Origin: a virus
Strand: one strand, 5' to 3'
Length of the DNA: 38,746 nt
Virus record (IMG/VR): IMGVR_UViG_3300035212_000356
Span: 1 to 38,746 of that record
Shown here: positions 1,898 to 18,534 of the stretch, one piece after another
Layout of the letters: every line of letters begins with the position of its first letter
How positions within the stretch are numbered: position 1 is the stretch's first letter
Program-made: the position numbers and the translations under genes
Notes under the pieces: generated by a model
Databases searched by the model: none
Told to the model about the DNA's origin: nothing
What the model saw: the letters and a program-made list of their open reading frames with translations, nothing else

Positions 1898-2082
1898 AAG
1901 AGATAACTTTAGAGGAGCTTTATATTAACGAAGCCTTAAAATACAAAAACCAAAGAGACGCATGTAAGTGGTGGCAGTTTAGAAAGAAAGCGGAGTTAGA
2001 CAAAGCAAGAAAAACTTCCATTGATATAGCTATGATGTACAGTGTTAATCATCAAGATAGAAAGGTTTTTTATAATGGATAA
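1894..2082 (+). CDS. Hypothetical protein (62 aa)
   Basis: A 62-residue basic protein with the Trp/Lys-rich stretch ACKWWQFRKKAELDKARK followed by a short hydrophobic helix (SIDIAMMYSV). It begins at an ATGA overlap and its end overlaps the start of the helix-turn-helix gene by 8 bases. It could bind nucleic acid because of its positive charge, but nothing specific supports that. Function unknown. Confidence 0.6.
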   Translation: MKEITLEELYINEALKYKNQRDACKWWQFRKKAELDKARKTSIDIAMMYSVNHQDRKVFYNG

Positions 2083-2437
2083 TAACTTAATTGGAACGCT
2101 AGAGATTAGTAGACAGCTAAAAATTAGCAGAAATCAAGTGTCATACAGATGTAGAAAACTAGGTTTTGGAAATAAAAACGGAACTCCAATACTTTTAGAT
2201 GAAGATCAATTCTTGATGGTTAAAGACTATAGCAACAATAGTATAAAAAATAGAAGTGTAAGAGATAAGTACGACAAAAGAAACATATTAATTGTTGAGT
2301 ATTTTATATCAATGAGGAATAATTCAATACCAGAAATTGCAAACACTCTTGGTATTAAAGAAAGCTCAGTTCACTCAGCAATAAATCAATTTTTAAAAGA
2401 CGGATGTGTAACAGTAAAAAGTAAATTATGTATTTAG
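2075..2437 (+). CDS. Helix-turn-helix DNA-binding protein (120 aa)
   Basis: Likely a small DNA-binding protein or regulator. Two helix-turn-helix-like segments are visible: residues about 7-30 (GTLEISRQLKISRNQVSYRC) and about 83-108 (IPEIANTLGIKESSVHSAIN), the second of the sigma-70 region 4 / MarR-like type. A Lys/Arg-rich linker joins them. The ATG at 2075 is preferred over a GTG at 2042, since the extra upstream residues do not extend a domain and would deepen overlap with the previous gene. It could control expression in this early-type operon or act in replication; target unknown. The end overlaps the next gene by 10 bases. Confidence 0.72.
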   Translation: MDNNLIGTLEISRQLKISRNQVSYRCRKLGFGNKNGTPILLDEDQFLMVKDYSNNSIKNRSVRDKYDKRNILIVEYFISMRNNSIPEIANTLGIKESSVHSAINQFLKDGCVTVKSKLCI

Positions 2438-2772
2438 ACGAAGAAATTTATAATTCTATGATAGCTTCCACTATCGAGGTTAAAGATGCTGAAATTGTAA
2501 AAGGAATTAAGGAGAATAATGGAAAGCTAGACTACTCAGAAATAAACTTTGAGTTATTAGATATGATGGCTGAAAGGCTTATGAAGAACAAAGATAAATA
2601 TCCAAAAGGGAACATGCTTAAACAAATAGATATTAAGGAGCTAGAGTGGGCGGCATTCAGACACTTGAGAAAAATGATTCAACCAATTGATGGAGACGCA
2701 GAAAGTTACGAAGACCACCTATCAGCGGTAGCATGTAATTTAAGTATGATTTTAAACCAATTAAAGAGATGA
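2428..2772 (+). CDS. DUF5664-like (putative dATP/dGTP diphosphohydrolase-type) protein
   Basis: A 114-residue protein whose second half carries the pattern of the DUF5664 family, often labelled dATP/dGTP diphosphohydrolase: FRHL near residue 77, DGDAESYEDHL at 88-98 and ACNLSMIL at 102-109. Members are helical proteins, related to MazG-type folds, found in phage nucleotide-pool operons. The KQIDIKELEWAAFRHL segment fits this. It lies two genes before a MazG-like protein, supporting a role in dNTP pool control. The family link rests on pattern memory, not a search. Its TGA overlaps the ATG of the small gene that follows. Confidence 0.55.
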   Translation: MYLDEEIYNSMIASTIEVKDAEIVKGIKENNGKLDYSEINFELLDMMAERLMKNKDKYPKGNMLKQIDIKELEWAAFRHLRKMIQPIDGDAESYEDHLSAVACNLSMILNQLKR

Positions 2773-2912
2773 AAAGTACACAATCACCGATGCAGAGAAT
2801 AAAAAGAGTCATGGACTACTATTATAGAAAAGGAGCGAATAAAGAATTAGTTAACTCAGTATATAAAAATATATTAAAAATAAAATATGAAGAAGCAAAT
2901 AAATCAAGTTAA
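2769..2912 (+). CDS. Small hypothetical protein (47 aa)
   Basis: A 47-residue basic protein (MKSTQSPMQRIKRVMDYYYR...EEANKSS) filling the apparent gap between the DUF5664-like and MazG-like genes. The ATG overlaps the previous stop by 4 bases and the TAA at 2910-2912 lies inside the next gene. This tight nesting matches its neighbours. The predicted structure is two basic amphipathic helices; no known motif is seen. Confidence 0.6.
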   Translation: MKSTQSPMQRIKRVMDYYYRKGANKELVNSVYKNILKIKYEEANKSS

Positions 2913-3315
2913 GTTATTCCAGGAAAGTTTTAATGGAATCGTAAATGATAGACCAACTCTTCTATCCGACAGAGAGTACGCACTAAGATATAGCCTACAG
3001 CAAGAAGAGCTAGATGAATACTTGGAGGCTTGTAGAGAGGATAATATGGTAGAAATTGCAGACGCTATTGCTGATCAGTTATTCTTAATACTCGGAACTG
3101 CTATATCGCATGGACTCCATAATGTAATTGAAGAGGTTTTTGATTCTGTTGTAGGTAGTAACATGTCTAAGCTTGACGACCAAGGAAATCCAATATACAA
3201 TGAATTTGGTAGTTTCTATTACGATGAGAAGAAGCCTATAGGAAAGATATTAAAGAGCAAGAACTTTTACTCTCCAACGGAAATGATTGAAAAAATAATC
3301 AGTAAAGAATTATAA
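2887..3315 (+). CDS. MazG-like all-alpha NTP pyrophosphohydrolase
   Basis: Expected to hydrolyse nucleoside triphosphates to monophosphate and pyrophosphate, cleaning or reshaping the dNTP pool during phage replication. The metal-binding signature is visible: EELDEYLEA (E40, E41, E44) followed by EIADAIADQLFLILGTAI (E56, D59, D63), the ExxE...ExxD pattern of the all-alpha NTP pyrophosphatase superfamily. At 142 residues it is normal for phage members; the C-terminal part (VGSNMSKLDDQGNPIYNEFG) is typical of the branch related to phosphoribosyl-ATP pyrophosphohydrolase. It overlaps the end of the 47-residue gene by 26 bases. Confidence 0.85.
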   Translation: MKKQINQVKLFQESFNGIVNDRPTLLSDREYALRYSLQQEELDEYLEACREDNMVEIADAIADQLFLILGTAISHGLHNVIEEVFDSVVGSNMSKLDDQGNPIYNEFGSFYYDEKKPIGKILKSKNFYSPTEMIEKIISKEL

Positions 3316-4747: not shown

Positions 4748-6318
4748 CGTATTCAGAAGAATTTGATGATGTGGTACTATTATTAGTGTCCAATAATTAC
4801 TCAATAACTGAGGCTACTAAAATGACTTGCGATTATTTCAATGTGGGATATAATGATTCAATAAGAAGAAGGTGTTCAGCATTAGTTAACTCAAAAAAAG
4901 AAGATGTAACAGAAGAAGAGTTGATTGATGAGGTGTTTGAGGCTTCTAAAAGCAAAGAGTTTGATAAGTCTAAGAAAAGATTTATAATCTCTTGGTGTCA
5001 GAGTGATACTAAAATTCATGAACAATTCATGGACAATATTGAGAGTTATGCTAATAAGATAGATGCATCAATTCACATTATACTTGGCAGATATAAAAAC
5101 CCAACATCACTTGATGTGAGTAATAAAATGAAGAGCGAAGAGAAATCTGTTTCATATAACTGGGACAAGAGAGTTGTTAAGTATGCTGACTCAAACAGGC
5201 ATAACATACATAAGTATTTGTGTGTTGCCTCTGATTTAAAGATACAACCAACAGCCTCTACTCCATTATCAGGTTTAAATTCATTGACTGGTATTGAAAG
5301 TTGTATCGTTGGTCATCCAAGGGTTCACATGAAGTCTCTTCCTGTTTTAGATGGATACCCAAGTAAGTTAGTTATGAGTACTGGATCTGTATCCCTTGAG
5401 AACTATACAGACACCAAGGCTGGTAAGAAAGGTGAATTCCACCATACACTAGGCTTTGTAATTGTTGAGCTTGATGGAGATATTTTTCACACAAGACAGG
5501 TTCAGTGTTCTGAAGACGGTTCTTTCTATGACTTATGTTTCTTAGTTGATAATGGTGAGGTTTGCATTCATAGTGGTGCTGAGGCTGTAGTTTTTGGTGA
5601 TTTGCACCTAGGAGAAACAAGTGATGAGGCTTTAGGCGCTTCATTTAAAATGTGTGAACTTGTTGATTGTAAGGAGGTTATACTTCATGACGCATATAAT
5701 GGTCACAGCATTTCACATCACGAGAAAAGAAATCCATTCATATTAATGCAGAGGGAGAAGGATGGAAGTAATTGTTTAAAGAAGGAGTTATCTGAATTGG
5801 TTTCATTTTTTGAAGAATACCAAGACTATAACTTTACGTTAGTACGAAGTAATCACGACGAATGGCTTGACAGATGGCTTAAAGAGTCTGACTGGAGAAA
5901 AGAAGGGAATAGGGAGGTGTACTTAACTCTTGCTAATTTAATGGCTTTAAATCCTGTAAATAACGGAGCTTTAGATTTGTTTCTAAAAGATGTTGGTGTT
6001 GAAAATGCACATTGCTTAAATATAAACGACAGTTATATTGTTGGAGATTTTGAATTAGCTATACATGGACATGTTGGAGCTAATGGAAGTAGAGGTGGTA
6101 TTGTTCAGTTTAAGAATATGAATACTAAAACAATAACAGGTCACTCGCATTCTCCTGCTAGAGAAGATGGAGCTATTGTGGTTGGAACGCTAACACATCT
6201 TAGGGTTTCTTATAACTCTGGAGCAAGTTCATGGATGAACTCAAACGCAATTATATATCCAAACGGTAAAGCTAGTAATGTACATATAGTAAATGGAAGG
6301 TTTACTACTTTAGTTTAA
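4744..6318 (+). CDS. T5 A1-like DNA-transfer protein with metallophosphoesterase domain
   Basis: A 524-residue homologue of phage T5 A1-type proteins. In T5, A1 is needed for second-step DNA transfer and host takeover; many other phages carry relatives of undefined role. Residues 1-60 look like a helix-turn-helix extension (YSITEATKMTCDYFNV). Residues about 77-250 carry the conserved A1 pattern (RFIISWCQSDTKIHEQF, RYKNPTSL, IQPTASTPLSGL, VGHPR, YTDTKAGKKGEFHH). Residues 280-482 hold the metallophosphoesterase: GDLH 285-288, HD 315-316, SNHD 369-372, HGH 441-443 and GHSH 466-469, all metal ligands present. It is the last plus-strand gene, ending at a bidirectional terminator. Whether it works in DNA entry here is inferred. 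Confidence 0.85.
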   Translation: MTYSEEFDDVVLLLVSNNYSITEATKMTCDYFNVGYNDSIRRRCSALVNSKKEDVTEEELIDEVFEASKSKEFDKSKKRFIISWCQSDTKIHEQFMDNIESYANKIDASIHIILGRYKNPTSLDVSNKMKSEEKSVSYNWDKRVVKYADSNRHNIHKYLCVASDLKIQPTASTPLSGLNSLTGIESCIVGHPRVHMKSLPVLDGYPSKLVMSTGSVSLENYTDTKAGKKGEFHHTLGFVIVELDGDIFHTRQVQCSEDGSFYDLCFLVDNGEVCIHSGAEAVVFGDLHLGETSDEALGASFKMCELVDCKEVILHDAYNGHSISHHEKRNPFILMQREKDGSNCLKKELSELVSFFEEYQDYNFTLVRSNHDEWLDRWLKESDWRKEGNREVYLTLANLMALNPVNNGALDLFLKDVGVENAHCLNINDSYIVGDFELAIHGHVGANGSRGGIVQFKNMNTKTITGHSHSPAREDGAIVVGTLTHLRVSYNSGASSWMNSNAIIYPNGKASNVHIVNGRFTTLV

Positions 6319-6327
6319 AATAGGAAT

Positions 6328-6365
6328 AAAAAAAGAGGGAATCAATTACGACTCCCTCTTTTTAT
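6328..6365. terminator. Bidirectional rho-independent terminator between convergent blocks
   Basis: A perfect 10-base inverted repeat (AAAAGAGGGA at 6331-6340 and its complement at 6353-6362) with a 12-base loop. A runs before the stem and T runs after it give a U-tract on both strands. It lies between the A1-like stop (6318) and the stop of the giant gene (6368), so it can stop transcription from both sides and prevent antisense reading. Confidence 0.9.
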
Positions 6366-6367
6366 TT

Positions 6368-9300
6368 TTACTTACCTCCAAACTTTAATTCACTTTTCGG
6401 TTTTCTTACCGCCCTTGTTTTTCCATCAATTTTCTCTTGATACAATCTAGAGTTGTAAGTCATTTTAGCTTTTTCATCTGCCTCTTTTTCTTCCTTAGTT
6501 TTATAGAATTTCTTTTTAGAGAAATCGAGTATCATGTTTTCTTGAAACTGTCTACCAGTAGCCTCCTTAACCCTATCTTTCCTCATTTTAGATTGAACTC
6601 TAGATAAGTCTGGAAGTCCAGGAATACTCAATATTTGAGCAGTTGCTTGCCATTCTTTATTTTTTACAGACTTCATTAATAGCTCTGTAACAGTAGCAAC
6701 GGTAGGAGACAAAGAAGTGTTTATTGTTTGTTGAACATATCCAAATAAACTTTTATCAGAAAGAACCTTACTAGGAGTCCCTAAGTTATCAACATAAGTG
6801 TCGTAGTATCCTTTACCAAACTTATTATCTACACGCTCTTTATTAAAATATTCTACACCAACACCAACACCACCTTTTATGAATGTATTAGCTCTACCTA
6901 CAGCAACTTGTGTAAGCCATTTAGCGCCCTGTGTTTTCATTTGATCTACAATATCATCTTTTCTATAGCTATTCATCAACTCTAAAGTTCTTTCGGCTAG
7001 CGTTATATCTAAAGGACCTCCTCTTCTTTGACTTCTATCTAAGACCTTATCAGAATCTACTGCATATAAGGCGTTTGCTGGACCAGTAAAGTCCATCATA
7101 TAGAAGTTCATGTCTTCTAACTTATCCTCTATCTTACCAATCAAGTCTTCTCTTTCTTTATCAGAGTAAAGTGACATACCGTACTTTGAGTGAAGGTATG
7201 CTAAAGAGTTTATGTAAACTAACGCAGCATCGCTTTGGTTTTCAAACTTATCGTCAACTCTTTTTAGGTATGATTCATAATTTTCTTTATCGTATTTATC
7301 CTCTATACTCTTAGCTAAAGCTGATACATGACCACCTAACGCAATTCTGTTATTATATGACTTAAGTATATCATGAATTATCTTAAAGTCTTTATCTTTT
7401 AACATTTCATCTACAAAAGCCAACTTCTCTTTATAGGTCGTCTCTTTGTTTTCAAAGAAATCGTTTGCTGATTTTATAAACTTATCGTTATCAGCTAAGT
7501 TATCAAGACTGTCCTTTAATTTTTCTTCCTCATCATCTTCACCCATTAAGGCAGAAGCTATAACTCCCATCATTGAATTTATCATCAAAGCATAAGATGT
7601 TGCTCTCACAGATTGCGATACCACCTTCTTAACATTCTCCCACGTTTCTTCTCCAGATAAGGCTTTATTTATACTTCTACTTACAGTATCTATCGATCTA
7701 TCATTAAATGTATTCAAGAAGTTTGATGATATTATAATAGCTCTTACTAATCCATTTCTACCTTTTACATTTCCAACTTTAGCTCTTGTAACTCTTATAG
7801 GGTTTTCAAATGTATTCTTGCTACCCATTAGCTCAGAAACATCGTAGTTGGCTTTGTTTGCCGCCTCAGTTATTAGGTCTCTGTTTTTAATTAAGTAGTT
7901 TGGATCATTTATAACCGCTTCAACATCTAACTCTTCGTTTGAAATCTTATTAAACTCATTTACGAACTTCCCTATACTAAAGTGGTAGTATGGTAAGTTA
8001 TCAGATATACTTGTTAATTTTTCATTTATACTTCTAGTGGTTTCTGTAACCTTACCAAAACCAGTCTTAATCTTTACTTTATTTATAAAGCTTTCAAGCT
8101 TAGATGGTAAACTCTTTGTTGTAAAGTTGGTATTTACTCCTCTGTTTGCAAATTCTTCGTTAACACTTGAAGGTCTTTTTGTCTCCATCACCCTTGTAAT
8201 TTGTGGGTTCTGTATGTTAACAAGGAACGTACTCATGTTGTCATCTATATCTCCTTTTAGTTTACTTATCTCATTAGCCACCTTAAGACCTTTTATCGAT
8301 GCTGTTGGATCTTGAATCGCAGCAGCCATTACGTTTCCAGCAAAATCGGCAGCTGTTCTAATACCACTTGCAAGGTATATCTTATAAGCTATATTACTTG
8401 CTTTATCCAAAAGAGTATCTAACCCAGAAGATTGAAGTGTGTTTCCAGAAACCAGTAATTCAGAAGCGTTTTTAACAGCTTCATATATCTCCTTTGTTTC
8501 TTTTGCTTTTCTTTCAATAATCTTTGTTTCTTTGTCTGATAAGTTCTTGTTTTTTAGCTCTTGTTTAAGTTCATTCATGTAAGTGTTTAATCCCTTTAAG
8601 ATACCGTTTATTTCTGATCTTAACTCAAACTGAATGTCAGTGCTATTGATTGATGATATAGTAGCACTAAATGGATTTAGGTTTATAGGATGTAAGCTAC
8701 CTTTCTTTGAAATCAAATTACCAGATTTAGTTGATGGTGTTGAAAAATTAGATGTAATTGCTTGAAAGTCATCGTCTTGAGACGAGTCTGTGTTAGGCTG
8801 AACAGATGCATATCCCTCTACTAAAGGTGCTGCATTTCCATTTTGGAAAAAAGAAGACTCATAAACATCTATAGATTTATCCTGTAGCTCCCTGTTCATT
8901 GCTTCGTAGGCAGCTCCCTCTATCTTATCCATCTTAATCATTCCTTTATCATCAACATCAAATTCATTATTATCTAACGCCTTTAAGAACTCCTTTATAA
9001 GTTTCTTCTGGTCTTCTCCGTATTTAGAATTAGAACCAACAAGTGTTTCGTCAAAAAATTGTCTAGCTGTATATCTTCCAGATGTATTGTTTTTTTCTTC
9101 ATTAAGATTAAACATATTCTGAAGCTGATTGTATCTTATCTTCATCAATGATATATGCACATTCTTTGAGTCTTTTAGTATGTTGTCGTACACTTGCTTT
9201 AAGTTTGTATTCACCTTCCTCATTTTTTCGTCATGAGAGGCAACTCTTTTAGATAGTAAAGACGTTATATTTTCATACAAAACATTTCCAGAATATCTTT

Positions 9301-12300
9301 TTAAAGCTGAGTCAATTGCAAATAAAGCAATACTTTCAACACGATCTTTAATTGTATCCTTTCCATTTCCAGCTATAAAGGCTTTTATTCTCTGTCTCAT
9401 TTCTGGAATAAAACCAGATACCTTACTTCCGTAAACGCCACCCTTTTTAGATTCAGCAGATTTTTTTGCTGCATTATAAGCGTTTCTCCCTGTCTTGTAA
9501 ACAAATAGGTTTTCTGCATAAGATGTCATGACACCATCAGAAGCGCTCTCTAAAGCATTAACAGCGTTATCCAGCATAGATGAGTCCATATTATCTATAT
9601 CTTCCTGAGTTAAAGAAGATAAAGCATTAAGTATTCTAAACTCCATGCTAGAAGGCTTAATGTCAGAAGACTCAAAGTAATCAGAAACAGCCTTGACTGC
9701 ATTTGATATTTTAACTCTATTCTCTTCATCTTTAACCCTTCTTTTTTCCTTCTTCTCTTCAGACGCATCTTCATCTACCTTTGCTTTAAATAGCTTTTTA
9801 TTAGAGTCTATATACGACTGCTCTGAATCTGTTAAAGTAGAGTCTGAGTCTATTTTACTTTGTATATCATCTATTTTTTGTAACTCCGCATTATAGTCAG
9901 ATATGATGCTATCGTATGTTTCATTTACATTTGAAATGAAGTCATTAGTCAAATCCTTTATGGTTAATCTTCTTGTTGATAGGTCTTGTATTATTTCTAC
10001 AAATCTATCGTACAAATCTTTTGATACCGCATTCTTAAGAACAGACGCATTGATTAAGGTTATGTTTAACATTCTTGATTCTAATGGATTGGCTTTTCCA
10101 CTATCATCTAATCTTCCAGCTTTACCAGCTAAAACATTTTTCTTTGCTGCTACAGATTTTTTTCTAGTTATTTCTTGTTCAGTTTTTTGTTTTCTAGAAG
10201 AAACTTCAGGCTCTATTTTAATTATACTTCTTCTGTTTCTCTCATTGTTAATGGTTACTCCTTGAGCTGTTCCGTCAATACTTTTATAGCCTATCTTCTG
10301 ACCTTCAACAGATTCTATAATAGATTCTTTACCATCTATAATAGCCTTATCTCCAACTTCAAATGTAGGGAGTGGTCTTTCTTTAAATGGTGTAGTGTCG
10401 TTAGAAGGTTTTAGTTCGTTTGTTGTTTGCGCTCTAAGTTCTGATCCTCTCCATTGAGTTACAGCCATATCAAAACCATTCTCGTTAGCTATTTTAGTAA
10501 TAAAAGCGCCTCTATGATTGTTCGTGAATGCTTGACCAGGTCTAACCTTGTTAAATCTTTTTCTAGCTTCTTCTTCAAAACCAAGTGGATCAGAGTCAAT
10601 GTCGTAAACTTTATCTTTAGGTATTGTGACAGTATGCTCTACATTTCCAACTCCAGTCTCTTTTTGACCTTCCATTGTGTAAAACATTGCTAAACCACCA
10701 ACAGCACTCAACGCAGAAGCCTCTTCTCTTGAGGTTATTGCATTGTTACCCTGACCTCTCTTAATTACATCTCTTTCTTGATCTGAATAGTGTTTAAATA
10801 CGAAATCGCCATCCTTGTTTTCTGTTAATTTACTTGAAACATTTGTAGGAAGTGCTTTTTGTTGTCTTTTTAAAGGAATGGTAACAACTTCTCTTACGCC
10901 TGAACCATATGGGGCTATAACTTGTGATGCTTGAGAAGGCTTTCCTGAGTATTTTTCAGCCATTTTTTTAGGCATAACCTCAAGTGCGTTTATTTTTGAA
11001 TCTGGAACACCTATAACATCTCCTTCAACTGTGTTTTCATATGTAGAGTGTTCAGATCCAGAACGAACACCTGTAGGTTTTAACACTAACATTATATCAT
11101 TCTGTTCAAAACCATTGTCTTTATAAAAACCATCACGCAAATCATTTACATCTGTATGACCATTGATAGATGAAATGTATTTGTATACTGCTGTGTTTGG
11201 TTTTTTTTGAATATCAACCAATGAGTTAAGGAATTTTTTTCTACCTGTTCCTATTTTTGTTTTTTGTATTTTATATTCTTTTATTTGTTGTTCGGTAGGA
11301 TTTTTTATTCCGCTCTTAACAAGAGCTTCTTGAGCCTTTTTTTTATCAATTGTACTGTCTACAGAAGTATCTTTTCTTAATGAATCCCAACTTGAATGAG
11401 CTTCCAACACCTCTTTAACATCTTTTGTAGGTTTTAATGAAAGAATAGTGTCTTTAAATGTTTTGTAATCTCCCAATTTTAAAGTCATTAAATCAAATAC
11501 CTTTTTATTAAATAACTTACTTAATTGAGGAGATCCACTAATAATAAATATATATTCAGATTCATCAATCTTTTTTTGTATATCCGAAATAGATACACCG
11601 CTTGCCCAAATATCTCCTTCTTTTTGATGCGCAAAACTTGGACCTCCATCTATACCTAGTTCTTTATTTATACCAAGTTGATCAGCTACCCAAAACCATA
11701 CTTTTTGTTTTTTATCAACGATATCTTCCAACAAAGAATAGATGTCAACTTTTTTGTCTGGAGTAACTAATGAGTTTTCATATGAATCCTTAAAGTTAAT
11801 TTTAGATTCACGTTTTTTAGGTACTCTGATTTCAGTTGGACTACCAATAGGATTAGTTCCATTATCTAATATAGATACATTTTCTACTGTAATCTCTTTA
11901 CCAGTAGCAACTTTCTTAGCAATGGTATTAAGAACATCTAACACCTCATTAGACTCAAAAATCTCAACACCAAACATCTTAGCTAAACTATTTAACCAAG
12001 CCTTAATTGCTTCCTTAGCTCTTCCTGATAATGAATCATAATTTGCCGCTAAAATACCAATAAACTCAGCAAGCTTCTCTTCGTCTTGAATATTTTCTTC
12101 ATAGTTATCTGCAAAATCCTCTAATCTTTGTTTTAAGGCTTTGTTTTTATCTAATGTAGGTAATATTGCGTTAAGCATTCTTTTAGTAACTTCAGCAGCC
12201 TTAGAATCAGTTTTAACCTTATCTAATAGTATAGCGTGGAATATTTCATGAGCAACAGTTCTTCTGTTTGCTTTTTCTAGGTTGATATGTATTGTTCCGT

Positions 12301-15300
12301 TTTGGTAAAGACCACTTGACGATTGGTTTTTAGACTCCCCACTAACACTTCTAAATGAATTATCTGTATCGTGAAGTATTACCTTTACATTTGGTAATAT
12401 TTTAGATATTGCTCTAACACCATTCAATACAGACTTTGAAATTTTTTTATCAGCTATGTTAGAAACCTGTTTTTTAGCTTGATTTATGTCTTTAGATACT
12501 TCGATTCCTTTCGACTTTGGCTGTAATCTTTTTTGTATATCTTTAAATTCAGCTGGAGTTAATTTTTTAGGATTCATACCATCAGAGCCAGTCTTAACAT
12601 TCTCAAATGTGTCTAAATCAAATAAAGACTCTTGACCTAACTCTTTACCTATAGCAATAGCTTCCTCTCTAACAGAAGGATCTGCAACTATATTTATATC
12701 TACAGATACTTGATTAGAATTAGGGAATTTATAAATACCAACTTTTACATTGTTAGCACCCACTGATTCTGCATTCTCATCTATAAATGCTTGAATAACT
12801 TCTGGAGTTAACTCAGATGAATTCATATTCTTTGAAGCTAAAGGAATAACTAATCCTCCGTCTTCATATTTAGAGCCATCAAGATTCATTGTAGCTCCAT
12901 CTTCAGATTCAACAGGAAGAGCTTTAACTCTATCTACTTCACTTGATGTGTATGTATCGGATATTTTTGTATTTACTTTTTCTTCACCTTGTTTGGAAGT
13001 AATTTCTTGTTTGGTGTTTCCTTGCTCCACTTCTTGCAATCCCATTTCGGATTGTCCTGGCTGTAACACGCCTTCATTTGTGCTTTGCTTTTGAATGGCA
13101 TCTTCTTGTGTTTTAATGTTAGTTAGTAATGGTTTTATTAACTTATCGTACTTGGTGTAAATCTCCTTAGCTTTTGCGTTGTCAGATTCGGATACTTTTT
13201 TAGCATCTACTTTACCGTCTGTAATAAAGCTTTCAGGGTTTTCTACATTGTCAGTTAATTCTTTAACCTCTTCAACCCTAAGTGCGTCTATTTTTTCTTG
13301 TGACTTTGCTGCGTTTTCTCCTTGTGCTGCGACAGCTTTTGTTGTGGTTTTGGTGTCCCCTCCAAGTTTTTCTTCGTTGGTTGTTTTTCTGGTTTCATAA
13401 ATCTCTTTTGCTTTTTTGTTAATTACTTCTGGATTAGGTTCTTGTATTTTATCTCTTTCTATTCCTTTATCTATTTGTTCTTGTATTATCGTTTCGGCAG
13501 CCTCTGTTTTAAGTTTAATTTGTTGTTCTTCAGGAAGATAATCAAACTCAGAATAAGTTCCATCAACAATACCATTTCTTTCTTTTTCTAATTCAACAAA
13601 CTTTTTATTTAGGCTTTCATATTCTTCTTTTTTTAATTCTGAAGACATAGCGGATTTTCTTAAATCGTTAAATTCTGCCTTTAATTCAGATTGCTGTTTA
13701 TTTATATCAAGTAATTTAGTTATTTCATTTTCAGACAATCTACCTACATTATCAACAGATTTAGCGATTATTTTGACCGCTTTACCAGACAACATATCTG
13801 ATTTTTCCTGAAGAATTGCTTTGTCTTTATCTGTTAGTAATAAGTTTGTATTTAATTCTTTATTTATTTCTTCTACCTTATTAATTACATCTCTAACTTC
13901 TTTTATATCCTTATTATCTGATATAGCTCTAAGTTCTCTTGAGGCAAAAGTAGATAAAGCACCAAAAGAAGAAACACCACCATCCATAACAAGTCCAGCA
14001 GCGTAAGCCTCTTTCATATTCTTAGCTATATCACTAGACGATAATTTATCACCATTAATAAATATATCCGAAATAGAGTTTGATAAAGAAGATAAGGCTT
14101 CAGATCCAGCTCCAATTTGAGTTTGAGCTAATGTTCCAGCAAACACCTTTCCAATTTCTTTTTTAAATGATTTTTCAGCTAGACTTCTAGCTTCTGTAGA
14201 TATAGTATTTAAAGATCCTTTCAAGTCTTCAATATACTTAAATGTAGAGTATTTTTCAGTGTATTTTTCAGCCCCATAATAAGCCCAACCAGATAAAACT
14301 TTTTGTAATTTAGAGTAATCTTTAGTAGACTCTTCCATTTGTTTTATTTTAGCCCCTCCAGATCCAGCCGAAATAATTTCTAAACCTACAGGACCTCCTA
14401 TAGCTAAAGCAGCAGCAACTCCAGTCTGTTCTGTAGCCACCTGACCTAACCAACTACCAGCATCACTCCAATTATTTACATCGTCAAGCGTCATCATTCT
14501 AAATTCAGGTCTCCCTTTTTTAGATTCTTTGCCAATATCCATTACATAGTTACCAGCCGCAGTTAATGGATCTTGATAGTCTAATCCAGTAAGTCTTCCT
14601 ACTGTTTCCTCAAAAGCCAACTCTCTTGTTTCTCCTATAAGTTTTAATCCGCCACCTATAGTTTCTTTAAAGAAATTATTTAGTATGTCTCTCGTCTTAT
14701 CTAAATCATTATAGTTGTACTTTAAAAGTTCTAACTTATCCTCATCTTTTTCTAACTTAGATAAATCTTCTTTATATGATTTTCTAAGTAGTACATTTTC
14801 TTCTTCTGCTTTTTTTGCTAAGTAGAATAACTCTTGACCTTTTGCTTTATCTTCTTCCGTAGCAGTGCCTTTGTTGTTTATTTCTATTAAAAACTTATTA
14901 TACGCATCTATTCTGTCGTCATTTACTTGTTTAAGTTGGATAGTTTTTCTTATATCTTCGTTTGATTTAAAATAATCGGCTTTTAGCTTTATATCCAACT
15001 CTCTTTGAACTTGATGACCTTCAGGTAAATTACTAAAATAAGTATCAGTAGCGTTTTTCTTTTGAGATAATTCATCATTCTTTAAAAATATTGATTTTGC
15101 TTTTTCCGAAACATCTTCCTTGGTGAAATTACCTAACCCTTTTTCTTCAATTAATTCTTTTTCTGCTTGCTCTTTCTCTATAGCTAAAGGGACACCTTTT
15201 TTAATAGTGAAATCTTTATCACCTCTAAAGTATTTATTAATATCAGTAAGAGGTTGTAGTAAGAATTTATTTGTAGAACTTCTTATTCCTTCAGAAATAC

Positions 15301-16192
15301 CATCTAATAACTGATACTCATCTAGTTCGTCTTTAAGTTTTTCTTCAGATATGGCTGGATTGTAGTTTTGATTTATAGCTAAATCTTGTTGTTTACTTAT
15401 AATTAAAAGTTCATCTGGAGTTAATTTAATCTGTTTCTCTATTTTTTCAGTAACAGCAGGTATTTGAGATAATACATCATATTTCTCTTCTATCTTTTTC
15501 GTTAAATCTTCAGAAACAGGTTTAGTCGAAACTACAGGTTGTGTTTTAGTAGTTCCGACTTTAGGTTTATTTTTTTGAGCTTCATATGCTTTTTTTTCAA
15601 CACCAGAGACTTTTTCTCCAGGCTTGATTCCAAACTTGCTTACTAGTTCGTCTGATTTTTTATCTGCAACCCTCTTCTCTTCTACTTTTTGTTCTGTGAA
15701 TGTAGAAGGTCTTTCTCCAAATAAGTTATCAGTAGAAACATTTTCTTTTTTCTGTTTCTTCCACTTCTCTAGCTGATTGCTGTTTTGAACAATCTTGTAG
15801 GTATATCCTTCTGGTAAATCTTCAGGTTTAGGTATTTCATCTACAGGTCCTCTTTTTGAATCTCTATTTATATACAAAACCTTTGTATCTCCAAAAGCCT
15901 TTACTGTTTTAGTTGTTCCAGTAGAAGATGCCGATGCCCCAGTTTTCTTTGGTTTTTCTCCAGCCGATAAAGGTTTTCCCTTTGTCTTTGGTTCTTGAGA
16001 TACCGATTGAGTTCCTGTCGTAGTAGATGGTGTAGATAATTCTTTTTTTTTTACTTCACCTTCACCTCCTTCAGTCACCTCTGTAAATGTATTATCTTGA
16101 ATTAAAGAATTAAATCTTTCTCCGTACTCTTTTTTAAGTTCACCCTCTGTTAAAATATTTCCGTTAGGTGTTTTAAATTGCTTTTCTGCCAT
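6368..16192 (-). CDS. Giant polyvalent ejection (internal virion) protein, 3274 aa
   Basis: Probably packaged in the virion and injected with the DNA. Residues 1-230 are low-complexity and Lys/Ser/Thr-rich. Around 570-650 lies a Gly/Ala hydrophobic stretch. Residues about 1270-1400 form a zincin-like peptidase: HEIFH at 1315-1319 and likely third ligand E1376 in LAEFIG. Residues about 1500-1520 carry WFWVADQLG and GGPSF, part of an unnamed conserved-looking domain. Residues about 1798-1910 resemble ADP-ribosyltransferase domains of phage polyvalent proteins: KHYSD near H1801, YDIDSDPLGF at 1863-1872, GFD at 1906-1908. Long coiled-coil-like stretches and hydrophobic helices near 2610 and 2864 follow. 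No lytic transglycosylase or polymerase motif was seen. As the last gene after two smaller ejection-type genes it parallels T7 gp14-gp15-gp16. The whole frame is intact. Confidence 0.8.
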   Translation of the reverse strand: MAEKQFKTPNGNILTEGELKKEYGERFNSLIQDNTFTEVTEGGEGEVKKKELSTPSTTTGTQSVSQEPKTKGKPLSAGEKPKKTGASASSTGTTKTVKAFGDTKVLYINRDSKRGPVDEIPKPEDLPEGYTYKIVQNSNQLEKWKKQKKENVSTDNLFGERPSTFTEQKVEEKRVADKKSDELVSKFGIKPGEKVSGVEKKAYEAQKNKPKVGTTKTQPVVSTKPVSEDLTKKIEEKYDVLSQIPAVTEKIEKQIKLTPDELLIISKQQDLAINQNYNPAISEEKLKDELDEYQLLDGISEGIRSSTNKFLLQPLTDINKYFRGDKDFTIKKGVPLAIEKEQAEKELIEEKGLGNFTKEDVSEKAKSIFLKNDELSQKKNATDTYFSNLPEGHQVQRELDIKLKADYFKSNEDIRKTIQLKQVNDDRIDAYNKFLIEINNKGTATEEDKAKGQELFYLAKKAEEENVLLRKSYKEDLSKLEKDEDKLELLKYNYNDLDKTRDILNNFFKETIGGGLKLIGETRELAFEETVGRLTGLDYQDPLTAAGNYVMDIGKESKKGRPEFRMMTLDDVNNWSDAGSWLGQVATEQTGVAAALAIGGPVGLEIISAGSGGAKIKQMEESTKDYSKLQKVLSGWAYYGAEKYTEKYSTFKYIEDLKGSLNTISTEARSLAEKSFKKEIGKVFAGTLAQTQIGAGSEALSSLSNSISDIFINGDKLSSSDIAKNMKEAYAAGLVMDGGVSSFGALSTFASRELRAISDNKDIKEVRDVINKVEEINKELNTNLLLTDKDKAILQEKSDMLSGKAVKIIAKSVDNVGRLSENEITKLLDINKQQSELKAEFNDLRKSAMSSELKKEEYESLNKKFVELEKERNGIVDGTYSEFDYLPEEQQIKLKTEAAETIIQEQIDKGIERDKIQEPNPEVINKKAKEIYETRKTTNEEKLGGDTKTTTKAVAAQGENAAKSQEKIDALRVEEVKELTDNVENPESFITDGKVDAKKVSESDNAKAKEIYTKYDKLIKPLLTNIKTQEDAIQKQSTNEGVLQPGQSEMGLQEVEQGNTKQEITSKQGEEKVNTKISDTYTSSEVDRVKALPVESEDGATMNLDGSKYEDGGLVIPLASKNMNSSELTPEVIQAFIDENAESVGANNVKVGIYKFPNSNQVSVDINIVADPSVREEAIAIGKELGQESLFDLDTFENVKTGSDGMNPKKLTPAEFKDIQKRLQPKSKGIEVSKDINQAKKQVSNIADKKISKSVLNGVRAISKILPNVKVILHDTDNSFRSVSGESKNQSSSGLYQNGTIHINLEKANRRTVAHEIFHAILLDKVKTDSKAAEVTKRMLNAILPTLDKNKALKQRLEDFADNYEENIQDEEKLAEFIGILAANYDSLSGRAKEAIKAWLNSLAKMFGVEIFESNEVLDVLNTIAKKVATGKEITVENVSILDNGTNPIGSPTEIRVPKKRESKINFKDSYENSLVTPDKKVDIYSLLEDIVDKKQKVWFWVADQLGINKELGIDGGPSFAHQKEGDIWASGVSISDIQKKIDESEYIFIISGSPQLSKLFNKKVFDLMTLKLGDYKTFKDTILSLKPTKDVKEVLEAHSSWDSLRKDTSVDSTIDKKKAQEALVKSGIKNPTEQQIKEYKIQKTKIGTGRKKFLNSLVDIQKKPNTAVYKYISSINGHTDVNDLRDGFYKDNGFEQNDIMLVLKPTGVRSGSEHSTYENTVEGDVIGVPDSKINALEVMPKKMAEKYSGKPSQASQVIAPYGSGVREVVTIPLKRQQKALPTNVSSKLTENKDGDFVFKHYSDQERDVIKRGQGNNAITSREEASALSAVGGLAMFYTMEGQKETGVGNVEHTVTIPKDKVYDIDSDPLGFEEEARKRFNKVRPGQAFTNNHRGAFITKIANENGFDMAVTQWRGSELRAQTTNELKPSNDTTPFKERPLPTFEVGDKAIIDGKESIIESVEGQKIGYKSIDGTAQGVTINNERNRRSIIKIEPEVSSRKQKTEQEITRKKSVAAKKNVLAGKAGRLDDSGKANPLESRMLNITLINASVLKNAVSKDLYDRFVEIIQDLSTRRLTIKDLTNDFISNVNETYDSIISDYNAELQKIDDIQSKIDSDSTLTDSEQSYIDSNKKLFKAKVDEDASEEKKEKRRVKDEENRVKISNAVKAVSDYFESSDIKPSSMEFRILNALSSLTQEDIDNMDSSMLDNAVNALESASDGVMTSYAENLFVYKTGRNAYNAAKKSAESKKGGVYGSKVSGFIPEMRQRIKAFIAGNGKDTIKDRVESIALFAIDSALKRYSGNVLYENITSLLSKRVASHDEKMRKVNTNLKQVYDNILKDSKNVHISLMKIRYNQLQNMFNLNEEKNNTSGRYTARQFFDETLVGSNSKYGEDQKKLIKEFLKALDNNEFDVDDKGMIKMDKIEGAAYEAMNRELQDKSIDVYESSFFQNGNAAPLVEGYASVQPNTDSSQDDDFQAITSNFSTPSTKSGNLISKKGSLHPINLNPFSATISSINSTDIQFELRSEINGILKGLNTYMNELKQELKNKNLSDKETKIIERKAKETKEIYEAVKNASELLVSGNTLQSSGLDTLLDKASNIAYKIYLASGIRTAADFAGNVMAAAIQDPTASIKGLKVANEISKLKGDIDDNMSTFLVNIQNPQITRVMETKRPSSVNEEFANRGVNTNFTTKSLPSKLESFINKVKIKTGFGKVTETTRSINEKLTSISDNLPYYHFSIGKFVNEFNKISNEELDVEAVINDPNYLIKNRDLITEAANKANYDVSELMGSKNTFENPIRVTRAKVGNVKGRNGLVRAIIISSNFLNTFNDRSIDTVSRSINKALSGEETWENVKKVVSQSVRATSYALMINSMMGVIASALMGEDDEEEKLKDSLDNLADNDKFIKSANDFFENKETTYKEKLAFVDEMLKDKDFKIIHDILKSYNNRIALGGHVSALAKSIEDKYDKENYESYLKRVDDKFENQSDAALVYINSLAYLHSKYGMSLYSDKEREDLIGKIEDKLEDMNFYMMDFTGPANALYAVDSDKVLDRSQRRGGPLDITLAERTLELMNSYRKDDIVDQMKTQGAKWLTQVAVGRANTFIKGGVGVGVEYFNKERVDNKFGKGYYDTYVDNLGTPSKVLSDKSLFGYVQQTINTSLSPTVATVTELLMKSVKNKEWQATAQILSIPGLPDLSRVQSKMRKDRVKEATGRQFQENMILDFSKKKFYKTKEEKEADEKAKMTYNSRLYQEKIDGKTRAVRKPKSELKFGGK

Positions 16193-16215
16193 AATATAAC
16201 TTGTTGTATATTTTT

Positions 16216-17565
16216 TTATTTAATTATAACTCCGTTCTTATCCCTCTTCGGAGGCTTGATTCCTTTAAATAATAGGTTAACCAAATCTTCGTCATTGTTA
16301 AGCTGAACACCAAACTTCTTAGACATCTTAGCTCTAACATTTGTCATTTCAGCCTTACTTGCTGTTGAATCAAAGTATTTGGTTTCCTTTTCAGAAGTTC
16401 CCATCGAAGTTCCGTCTGAAGAGTAACCACCTCTAACTGGAACAGAAATTCCATAAAATAACTTTCCATTATCTTCATCCCATATCAAGCCTGTTAACGG
16501 ATTACCGTTTATATCAATTCCAGGACCAGCTTTTTTCTCTATAGCTACATACTTTGTAGTATCTTTATTAAATGTGGTTGATATACCGCCAACCTGAGTA
16601 ACCCCTAAAGAAACTGGAGGTGTAATCTCTACATCATCTTTTTTACCGCTTCCGCCTCCACCACTTCTTTCTTGAAGGTCTAAAGATACAACTTCTCTAT
16701 AAGCATTTTTGTACGTCTCAATATTGTCTTTTATAAACTCTTCCTTCTCTTGTTTTGAGAAGTCTCTTGTCTTATAATCTCCTTTTTTACTTTTGTACCA
16801 TTTAGCCATAGCGGCATCGCTATTTGCCATTCCAGATACATGAGACTCTATATTATCAATAACAGTCTTATCATCCATCACATCATCAACAGTGGTAAAC
16901 ATATTTCCTTTTTTTGACTCTATTCTGCTTACTGGATTATTTTTAAGAAAAGTACTTAAATCTTTTTGCTCGTCAAATGCTAAAGGAGGATCTACTCTTG
17001 AAAGCCAAGTGTCAACAGTTTGTTTTGGAGCTAATATATCTCTAGTCCCATCCGCATTCTCGTCTCCTAATAATGTTATAAATATCTCACCATTTTCATA
17101 AGACGTAATGAAGTTTCCTTTATTGTATGAATTAAACTCCTCTATTGTTTTTGACAAATAGTCTTTGTCATATAAAGTTCCAGAAGCAAGGTCTTTTTCA
17201 AGCTTAGATACTTTCTCTTTAGCTGTTTTAGATACTGAGTTTATTTTAGCTAAATCATCAAGTCTTTTTTGAGCGCCAGATAAATCGCCAGACTGTTTTA
17301 GTTCGTAAAATTCAACCCTACCTTTTTCAGTCATCTCCCTTAACTGTTCATCTAGAGCTGGTATATTACCACCTTCGTAAACTCCATAAGTACCTAAATC
17401 TTTAGCCGCTTTTGCTTTAGCAGCTTCTTCGTCTTTTTTCTTCTTGTCTTCTAAGGCTTTTCTTTGAGCTATTTTATCAAAGGCGTCTTCAGTCATCTTA
17501 CCGAAGTCTGGACCTTGAACTTTATCTACTTGTGCGTATGTACCTACATTACCTACTACTGCCAT
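16216..17565 (-). CDS. Putative internal virion/ejection protein (449 aa)
   Basis: A 449-residue protein without a recognised catalytic motif. Residues about 20-60 are a highly charged Lys/Glu/Ala helix (AQRKALEDKKKKDEEAAKAKA), probably coiled coil; residues about 60-290 are mainly helical; a Gly-rich linker (RSGGGGSGKK) near residue 305 separates a C-terminal beta-richer domain. It sits 2 bases after the 185-residue gene stop and 23 bases before the giant gene, in the order small, medium, giant typical of podoviral ejection proteins such as T7 gp14/15/16 or P22 gp7/20/16. The role in DNA ejection is inferred from this order and composition. Confidence 0.6.
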   Translation of the reverse strand: MAVVGNVGTYAQVDKVQGPDFGKMTEDAFDKIAQRKALEDKKKKDEEAAKAKAAKDLGTYGVYEGGNIPALDEQLREMTEKGRVEFYELKQSGDLSGAQKRLDDLAKINSVSKTAKEKVSKLEKDLASGTLYDKDYLSKTIEEFNSYNKGNFITSYENGEIFITLLGDENADGTRDILAPKQTVDTWLSRVDPPLAFDEQKDLSTFLKNNPVSRIESKKGNMFTTVDDVMDDKTVIDNIESHVSGMANSDAAMAKWYKSKKGDYKTRDFSKQEKEEFIKDNIETYKNAYREVVSLDLQERSGGGGSGKKDDVEITPPVSLGVTQVGGISTTFNKDTTKYVAIEKKAGPGIDINGNPLTGLIWDEDNGKLFYGISVPVRGGYSSDGTSMGTSEKETKYFDSTASKAEMTNVRAKMSKKFGVQLNNDEDLVNLLFKGIKPPKRDKNGVIIK

Positions 17566-17567
17566 AA

Positions 17568-18125
17568 TTATTTTACCTTTGGTTTTCCAGTTAATGGATC
17601 TATCTCTTCTTTTTTAGAATCTCCCAAAGCTCCTAAACCAGAAATACCTGTTTGAGCAATCCCTCCAATTCCATCCCACATCATTTGGTTTCCTGCACTG
17701 TATTGAGAGGATAGCCCCGATATATCAGCAACCTCTCTCTGTTCTTGCATACCTCTTATTTGTGCTTGGTCTTGAGCATACATTTGATCTATTTGTTTTT
17801 GTTGCATATCTAAGTCAGCTCCAATCTGTCTTTCAACCATTTGGTTTCCAGCTTCAACTCTACCTAGACCTCCAACTAAACCTCTAACTCCAGCTCCTTG
17901 TAGTGCTCCAATCTGAGACGAAGCTAATCTTGCCTGCTCTTCTCTCTGTAAGTCAGCACCCAATGTGGATACCTGTAACCCTTCAGCTACATTGGATAAC
18001 TCTTGTCTGTTATAATTTTCTAAAGCATTTTTTGCGTCTCTCGCATCTTTTGCTCCTTTTAATGCCTGAAATCCTGAACCTAATAGTCCAATTCCTCCCA
18101 TCGCAATACTCGTAGCTGCTGCCAT
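17568..18125 (-). CDS. Putative small ejection/pilot protein (185 aa)
   Basis: A 185-residue Gly/Ala/Gln-rich protein. The N-terminus is a glycine-containing hydrophobic segment (TSIAMGGIGLLGSGFQALKG); the centre is a Gln-rich amphipathic helix (GNQMVERQIGADLDMQQKQIDQMYAQDQAQIRGMQEQRE, described here in part as residues about 92-130); a second Gly-rich segment (GIGGIAQTGISGLGALG) follows. This composition is typical of podoviral pilot proteins that insert in membranes during ejection (T7 gp14, P22 gp7). Position directly before the 449- and 3274-residue genes supports that role. No database comparison was possible. Confidence 0.6.
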   Translation of the reverse strand: MAAATSIAMGGIGLLGSGFQALKGAKDARDAKNALENYNRQELSNVAEGLQVSTLGADLQREEQARLASSQIGALQGAGVRGLVGGLGRVEAGNQMVERQIGADLDMQQKQIDQMYAQDQAQIRGMQEQREVADISGLSSQYSAGNQMMWDGIGGIAQTGISGLGALGDSKKEEIDPLTGKPKVK

Positions 18126-18129
18126 CTCT

Positions 18130-18534
18130 TTACTGTATTATTTTTATTAATTCACTTGTTCCTTTTGTCCCAACTTCAAAACCACTTTGAATGTACTTAT
18201 TAATCAATCCTTCGTGTTTTAATGATGAGAAAATAATTTTATAACCTCTTTTTCCACATTCTAAAGAAAGTTCCTCTAATAGCCTTAAAATGCCTTCTTC
18301 TCTATCTTTCTTAGATGCCTTTGGATTACTTACTACAAATTCTACCCAAGCAATGTGCGAGTTTGTATCGTAAATAAAACCACAGGCTAAATCTTCTCCA
18401 CTATCATTCTGAATCATTATACCTCCAAGACCATAGTCTGGCAAAGCAAGTAATGATGGAGCTGGAAATCTCCAGAAACTCCACCATTTTGTTAATGTAT
18501 CGTAGTCATTATTATTTAACCTTCTAACTTTCAT
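18130..18534 (-). CDS. GNAT-like acetyltransferase-type protein (134 aa)
   Basis: A 134-residue protein resembling short GNAT-fold proteins of phage structural modules. It begins RRLNNNDYDTLTKWW and contains GLGGIMIQND (strand 2-3), AWVEFVVSNP (the beta-4 core strand), and GYKIIFSSLKHEGLINKYIQSGFEVG, the typical final strand-helix-strand with the YxxxGF element. The acetyl-CoA loop (Q/RxxGxG/A) is replaced by KASKKDREEGILRLL, so acetyltransferase activity is uncertain. It lies between the tail-hub and ejection genes; similar GNAT-like genes occur in this place in other phages by recollection. A -7 promoter element lies only 4 bases before its ATG. Confidence 0.65.
   Translation of the reverse strand: MKVRRLNNNDYDTLTKWWSFWRFPAPSLLALPDYGLGGIMIQNDSGEDLACGFIYDTNSHIAWVEFVVSNPKASKKDREEGILRLLEELSLECGKRGYKIIFSSLKHEGLINKYIQSGFEVGTKGTSELIKIIQ

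Follow-up and report, generated by a model that had tools for sequence, protein, structure and literature searches.

A giant late-operon protein of an Elemovirus-like podovirus carries an exchangeable cassette of zincin, D3 and ART-like domains and a candidate self-cleavage motif

What kind of protein is encoded by the 9.8-kb gene that ends the late operon of this virus, and how could the enzyme-like domains strung along its single chain come to act? The window, that is, the whole stretch of DNA analysed here, is a 38.7-kb viral record (38,746 nucleotides) from a Bacteroidota podovirus resembling Elemovirus. Both terminase and portal share 77% identity with their counterparts in Flavobacterium elemo phages; the Cellulophaga phages phi38:1, phi13:2 and Calle match less strongly. 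The giant gene comes after those for terminase, portal, capsid, tail and gp14-family proteins as the last minus-strand gene of the late operon, and faces plus-strand genes. As the first-pass annotation had it, this is one intact gene closing the operon: an uninterrupted frame of 3274 residues with a terminator-like hairpin behind it (Table 1).

The gene two upstream of the giant matches the T7 gp14 family, at 25 bits against PF24072, just under the curated cut-off of 27, and at 5e-40 against a PHROG of virion structural proteins. Because of this match, the order of gp14-family gene, 449-residue gene, giant and terminator is read as that of T7 gp14-15-16, so that by synteny the giant occupies the position of gp16. 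Pfam, PHROG and PDB searches with the single sequence of the giant gave nothing usable, and none of the three linked it to T7 gp16 itself. The 449-residue protein shares only 24-28% identity with its counterparts in L001, L002 and elemoD, where its flanks are 46-86% identical, and it diverges together with the N-terminal part of the giant. Other genes of the window deserve mention in their own right. A 134-residue protein (18130-18534, minus strand; PHROG 17252) occurs in the tail region of most giant-carrying loci, and its Manatee Spring counterpart is annotated as an N-terminal acetyltransferase subunit. The muzzle domain of the 1470-residue tail protein links elemo-type podoviruses with crassvirus tails. 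An M15-type peptidase (PF13539; 36091-36555, minus strand) is a probable endolysin.

Table 1. Features of the giant protein and its neighbourhood, with window coordinates
Feature	Residues	Position	Strand	Basis
Terminator-like hairpin closing the late operon		6330..6363	-	1 found vs 0.1 expected
Giant gene, putative polyvalent ejection protein	3274 aa	6368..16192	-	ORF; Elemovirus homologue annotated 'structural protein'
C-terminal module	2061-3137	6782..10012	-	common to about 20 distinct giants
RKQK, ART/C-terminal linker, candidate zincin cleavage site	2000-2003	10184..10195	-	motif analysis
KOW/SH3-like beta barrel	1931-1996	10205..10402	-	Foldseek: Spt5 KOW, Tudor/SH3 barrels
ART-like domain, with H1801, Y1838, D1908	1780-1930	10403..10855	-	alignment, model, Foldseek
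RQQK, D3/ART linker, candidate zincin cleavage site	1776-1779	10856..10867	-	motif analysis
D3, new domain	1449-1773	10874..11848	-	74 loci; AlphaFold; no PDB match; 12 BFVD matches
Zincin-like metallopeptidase domain	1247-1444	11861..12454	-	conserved HExxH..EE..E; predicted helix/strand order
Candidate third zinc ligands	E1371, E1372 (invariant), E1376	12065..12082	-	alignment
HEIFH	1315-1319	12236..12250	-	sequence; alignment
N-terminal virion module	264-969	13286..15403	-	profile match to phi38:1 gp101, phi13:2 gp127
Strongest hydrophobic segment	592-610	14363..14419	-	similar segments in elemoA, phi38:1 gp101
Protein at T7 gp15 position	449 aa	16216..17565	-	synteny only; counterpart phi38:1 gp100 annotated structural
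T7 gp14-family internal virion protein		17568..18125	-	Pfam PF24072, E 2e-5, full length
Tail protein with crassvirus muzzle C-terminal domain	1470 aa	18554..22966	-	Pfam PF25729, E 4.6e-11

Iterated profiles together with pairwise identity delineated the modules of the giant. The profile of the N-terminal module matched phi38:1 gp101 (5e-126) and phi13:2 gp127 (2e-37), both of which are encoded at the same genome place as the giant and annotated as virion structural proteins, a label that, like the 'structural protein' labels of other homologues, is given as deposited. These two proteins have no HExxH, D3 or ART, and the C-terminal module is also absent from them. As they share the N-terminal module without the enzymes, the enzyme block has been added to a virion protein. 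Hydrophobic segments had been placed near the C-terminus; one moderate segment does lie there (2866-2884), whereas the strongest is N-terminal. In one locus (L081) the giant occurs in a natural split version, with the N-terminal virion module as a separate upstream ORF (6126-9311, plus strand) and the ART-zincin cassette as an ORF of its own (9794-16900, plus strand).

The motifs that drew attention to the central part all stand where they had been reported: HEIFH at 1315-1319, WFWVADQLG at 1499, GGPSF at 1516, KHYSD at 1800, YDIDSDPLGF at 1863 and GFD at 1906. An HExxH arises by chance in 1.1% of shuffles of the giant protein. Residues H1315, E1316 and E1372 are identical in all 50 aligned relatives, distant ones included, and H1319 and E1376 are kept in nearly all of them (E1376 in 47). 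E1372, being invariant, is thus a better candidate for the third zinc ligand than E1376, the residue originally put forward. The structural model of this domain is only fair (pLDDT 46-86), with the predicted order H14-27, E35-39, E59-62, E65-69, H75-90 carrying HExxH and H134-152 carrying E1372. The same order is described for polyvalent zincins, namely a helix, three strands, the HExxH helix and a later helix with a Glu (PMC5512222). The Pfam model MPTase-PolyVal (PF18818) did not match the giant.

The linkers around these domains contain a short recurrent motif, R[KQEM]Q[KRL], first noticed as R-x-Q-K at domain borders before its enrichment was computed. All giants together contain 103 copies against 28.7 in shuffles, standing in 63 dissimilar contexts, and an unbiased scan of tetrapeptide patterns put RQQK first, with 17 distinct contexts against 1.5 expected. 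The enrichment is tied to one zincin clade. Giants with the window-type zincin (70 sequences) have 92 copies against 19.3 expected, roughly 5-fold, an association that is phylogenetically confounded in that related sequences are not independent. Giants whose zincin is of another type show no enrichment (2 against 3.5), nor do those whose available sequence lacks a zincin domain (7 against 4.8, four of the seven in sequences cut off at the contig 5' end), nor do other ORFs (16 against 11.4). Within the window giant the motif occurs only at its two sites bounding the ART module, both in linkers where the AlphaFold pLDDT is below 50 or close to it (1761-1779 and 1998-2004), and it is found in none of the 16 other window proteins checked. 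Two further giants (L088 and L021) have it also at the zincin/D3 border. Across the giants, 11 copies lie inside domains and 83 outside, which is not a significant depletion (P 0.17). From this pattern, we read R[KQEM]Q[KRL] as the probable site at which the zincin would cleave its own chain.

It is possible, if rather unlikely, that the ejection protein acts uncut, with a zincin that attacks host proteins and with R-x-Q-K as a favoured flexible linker joining modules. In line with this, N4 vRNAP and the plasmid proteins ArdC/TraC1 are described as being transferred uncut despite the zincin (Iyer 2017, PMC5512222), and the motif is missing from 31 of 71 zincin-bearing giants. A plain linker, however, would be expected alongside other zincins or none as well, where the enrichment disappears, and permuted motifs of similar composition remain at or near background.

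Downstream of D3, the ART-like domain was modelled with a pLDDT of about 90. H1801 lies in strand 1, Y1838 in strand 2 and D1908 at the start of strand 5, which is the arrangement of H, Y and D given for Tox-ART-HYD2 (PMC5512222). All 41 relatives keep H1801 and Y1838, and the position of D1908 holds D in 34, E in 4 and Q or K in 3. Foldseek with the model found 6kyf across the whole target at a low score (prob 0.63, E 0.48, TMt 0.49); this entry is AcrIF11, an anti-CRISPR ADP-ribosyltransferase (PMC12421852). Most other Foldseek matches of the region fall on the KOW-like tail. Neither the giant nor any of the 41 domain relatives matched ART-PolyVal (PF18760) directly. Comparison with profiles of true ART-PolyVal domains was collinear over 111 columns and weak (E 0.019, probability 2.5%), against 16-17 aligned columns in two control comparisons; a joint alignment with loose ART fragments was misaligned and left out. 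Two sister giants that bear the window-type ART-like domain carry a true ART-PolyVal domain as a second one (L084 2221-2371, L041 1695-1785). The adjoining KOW-like barrel might serve to target transcription or ribosomes.

We consider residues 1780-1930 to be ART-like, a putative ADP-ribosyltransferase judged by alignment and model. That the region instead keeps an ART-like fold merely for binding seems doubtful: the variable acid position, the unusual invariant W1914 and R1920-A-Q and the weakness of the formal matches speak for it, and the H-Y-D placement, complete in the giant itself as in 34 of the 41 relatives, speaks against it. For the zincin as for this domain, the proposed families are deduced from where the motifs lie, from the predicted fold and from weak matches between profiles, since direct profile searches of Pfam, PHROG and PDB gave no zincin or ART match for the giant itself.

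The third domain, D3, had been noted as an unassigned region of about 1470-1700; it is indeed a domain, with wider limits from 1449 to about 1773. D3 is the most conserved piece of the giant and was found in 74 viral loci, and some distant D3 proteins also bear Pfam ART-PolyVal. AlphaFold on D3 alone reached a pLDDT of 89.1. Foldseek of this model against the PDB gave no significant match (best E 1.1), whereas BFVD gave 12 confident ones, all to phage proteins that are unnamed or 'uncharacterized', at 12-16% identity except for one protein at 47-48%. No D3 was found in GTDB genome contigs, nor by tblastn against sequenced phages with the D3 of the window giant and two distant D3s as queries, and nothing meaningful came from PHROGs with D3 or from PADLOC with the zincin-D3-ART core. 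One PDB match of the D3 profile, to the Legionella deubiquitinase RavD (46 columns, E 0.016), was set aside, since D3 lacks a conserved Cys and RavD was not among the Foldseek matches of the D3 model. In elemo phages the D3 slot holds another domain that shares the positions of an aspartate, W-A-S, an arginine and H-x-x-Y. Thirteen key positions coincide, H1715 and Y1718 among them, in an alignment that itself fits them together, and the profile comparison of the two domains is not significant (E 0.073, probability 0.8%).

Pairwise comparison of the giants shows that the zincin, D3 and ART-like modules move as cassettes. L002 and elemoA share 96% identity at the N-terminus and 82-100% over everything from the ART module onwards, against about 20-35% in the D3 slot; D3 has been swapped for the motif-sharing domain within otherwise 93%-identical phage sequence. 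Between the window giant and L001, identity is 58-92% over most of residues 1001-1990, drops to 25% in 1101-1200 and falls to background outside this block on either side. About 110 non-redundant sequences display the orders ZIN-D3, ART-ZIN, ZIN-ART, ZIN-D3-ART, ART-ZIN-D3 and D3-ZIN, and sister giants bear ART-PolyVal, LPD23, DUF3293, methyltransferase and GNAT domains. Between zincin and ART, L037 has matches to DUF7178 (2e-30), LPD23 (2e-10) and the DUF6782 metallopeptidase. D3 is confidently predicted, lacks a solved-structure match, occurs in dozens of aquatic phages and is exchanged as a unit, which points to a host-directed function.

The conservation of the cassette also bears on whether the giant could serve only as a structural component inside the virion, its enzyme-like domains having decayed. 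The loss of the putative ART acid in a few relatives would fit, yet zincin, D3 and ART-like domain are under purifying selection (dN/dS 0.07-0.26), the catalytic H, E, H and Y are invariant or nearly so, and conservation is higher in the enzyme cassette than in the virion modules, which makes decay improbable. Still less credible is that the R-x-Q-K sites serve as DNA-level recombination points for module swapping. Exchange borders do fall on the motif (residues 1776 and 2003, both within it, are the first and last of the block homologous to elemoA), but its 92 copies are encoded by 54 different 12-mers with background synonymous codon use, which indicates selection on the protein and makes a DNA site unlikely; nor would such a site explain why the motif goes with a single zincin clade.

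Several disparate enzyme-like domains (zincin, ART-like and D3) thus lie within one ORF, as in polyvalent proteins, and the earlier proposal is supported in part. For such a protein in the ejection position, with zincin and ART-like parts, speak the alignments, the predicted structure, the order of the genes and the recognised polyvalent domains (ART-PolyVal, LPD23) of sister giants, whereas a channel-forming role and toxin-like enzymes that act ahead of phage gene expression are conjectural. We favour, somewhat above even chances, a packaged polyvalent ejection protein whose zincin cuts R-x-Q-K/R/L linkers and so frees effectors. In this model, the giant would sit inside the capsid with the proteins at the gp14 and gp15 positions by virtue of its N- and C-terminal virion modules, which would hold between them the exchangeable effector cassette of zincin, D3 and ART-like domain with its KOW barrel. 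The giant is most likely packaged and enters the host by threading together with the DNA. The zincin would thereafter cut the linkers, releasing the ART-like enzyme, and probably D3 too, to act on host targets. A more far-reaching version, which we put forward only tentatively, sees the giant as a self-processing polyprotein whose zincin recognises R-[KQEM]-Q-[KRL] and frees effectors that include D3 as a new enzyme family; if so, the borders of the modules exchanged among these phages would lie at the same linkers. That polyvalent proteins are processed by their own zincins was predicted in 2017 (Iyer et al., PMC5512222), in a peptidase section that names no cleavage site for it. With a candidate site of four residues linked to a single zincin clade, autoprocessing becomes directly testable.

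Among known systems, the giant structural protein of Elemovirus (e.g. QLF85284.1) is the product of the same gene, with 51% identity in the zincin and 78% in the ART-like domain over alignable pieces; it differs in having the motif-sharing domain in place of D3 and is annotated only as structural/DUF3293. The T7 gp14-gp15-gp16 set has the same gene order, with a gp14-family neighbour and the largest gene last. Unlike gp16, the giant carries an enzyme cassette and shows no sequence match and no visible transglycosylase. The giant is also about 2.5 times longer than T7 gp16. Giant proteins are likewise found in crassviruses, also podoviruses of Bacteroidota, as packaged cargo proteins (phicrAss001 gp45-gp50; PMC10172136), and the muzzle domain is common to both groups. 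ART-PolyVal occurs in crassvirus RNAP-associated proteins as well, whereas no RNA polymerase part is seen in the window giant. With ART-PolyVal and Tox-ART-HYD2 themselves the ART-like domain shares the strand placement of H, Y and D, and departs from them in a D that is not invariant, in the extra invariant W and R-A-Q and in the KOW-like extension. The closest kin in kind are the polyvalent proteins (PMC5512222), which are likewise large and multidomain, lie in a phage structural neighbourhood and combine zincin, ART and shuffled domains. The giant is therefore of a known kind; what it adds is D3, a divergent ART-like family outside the Pfam models, single-module exchange visible between near relatives, and a specific candidate cleavage motif in its linkers.
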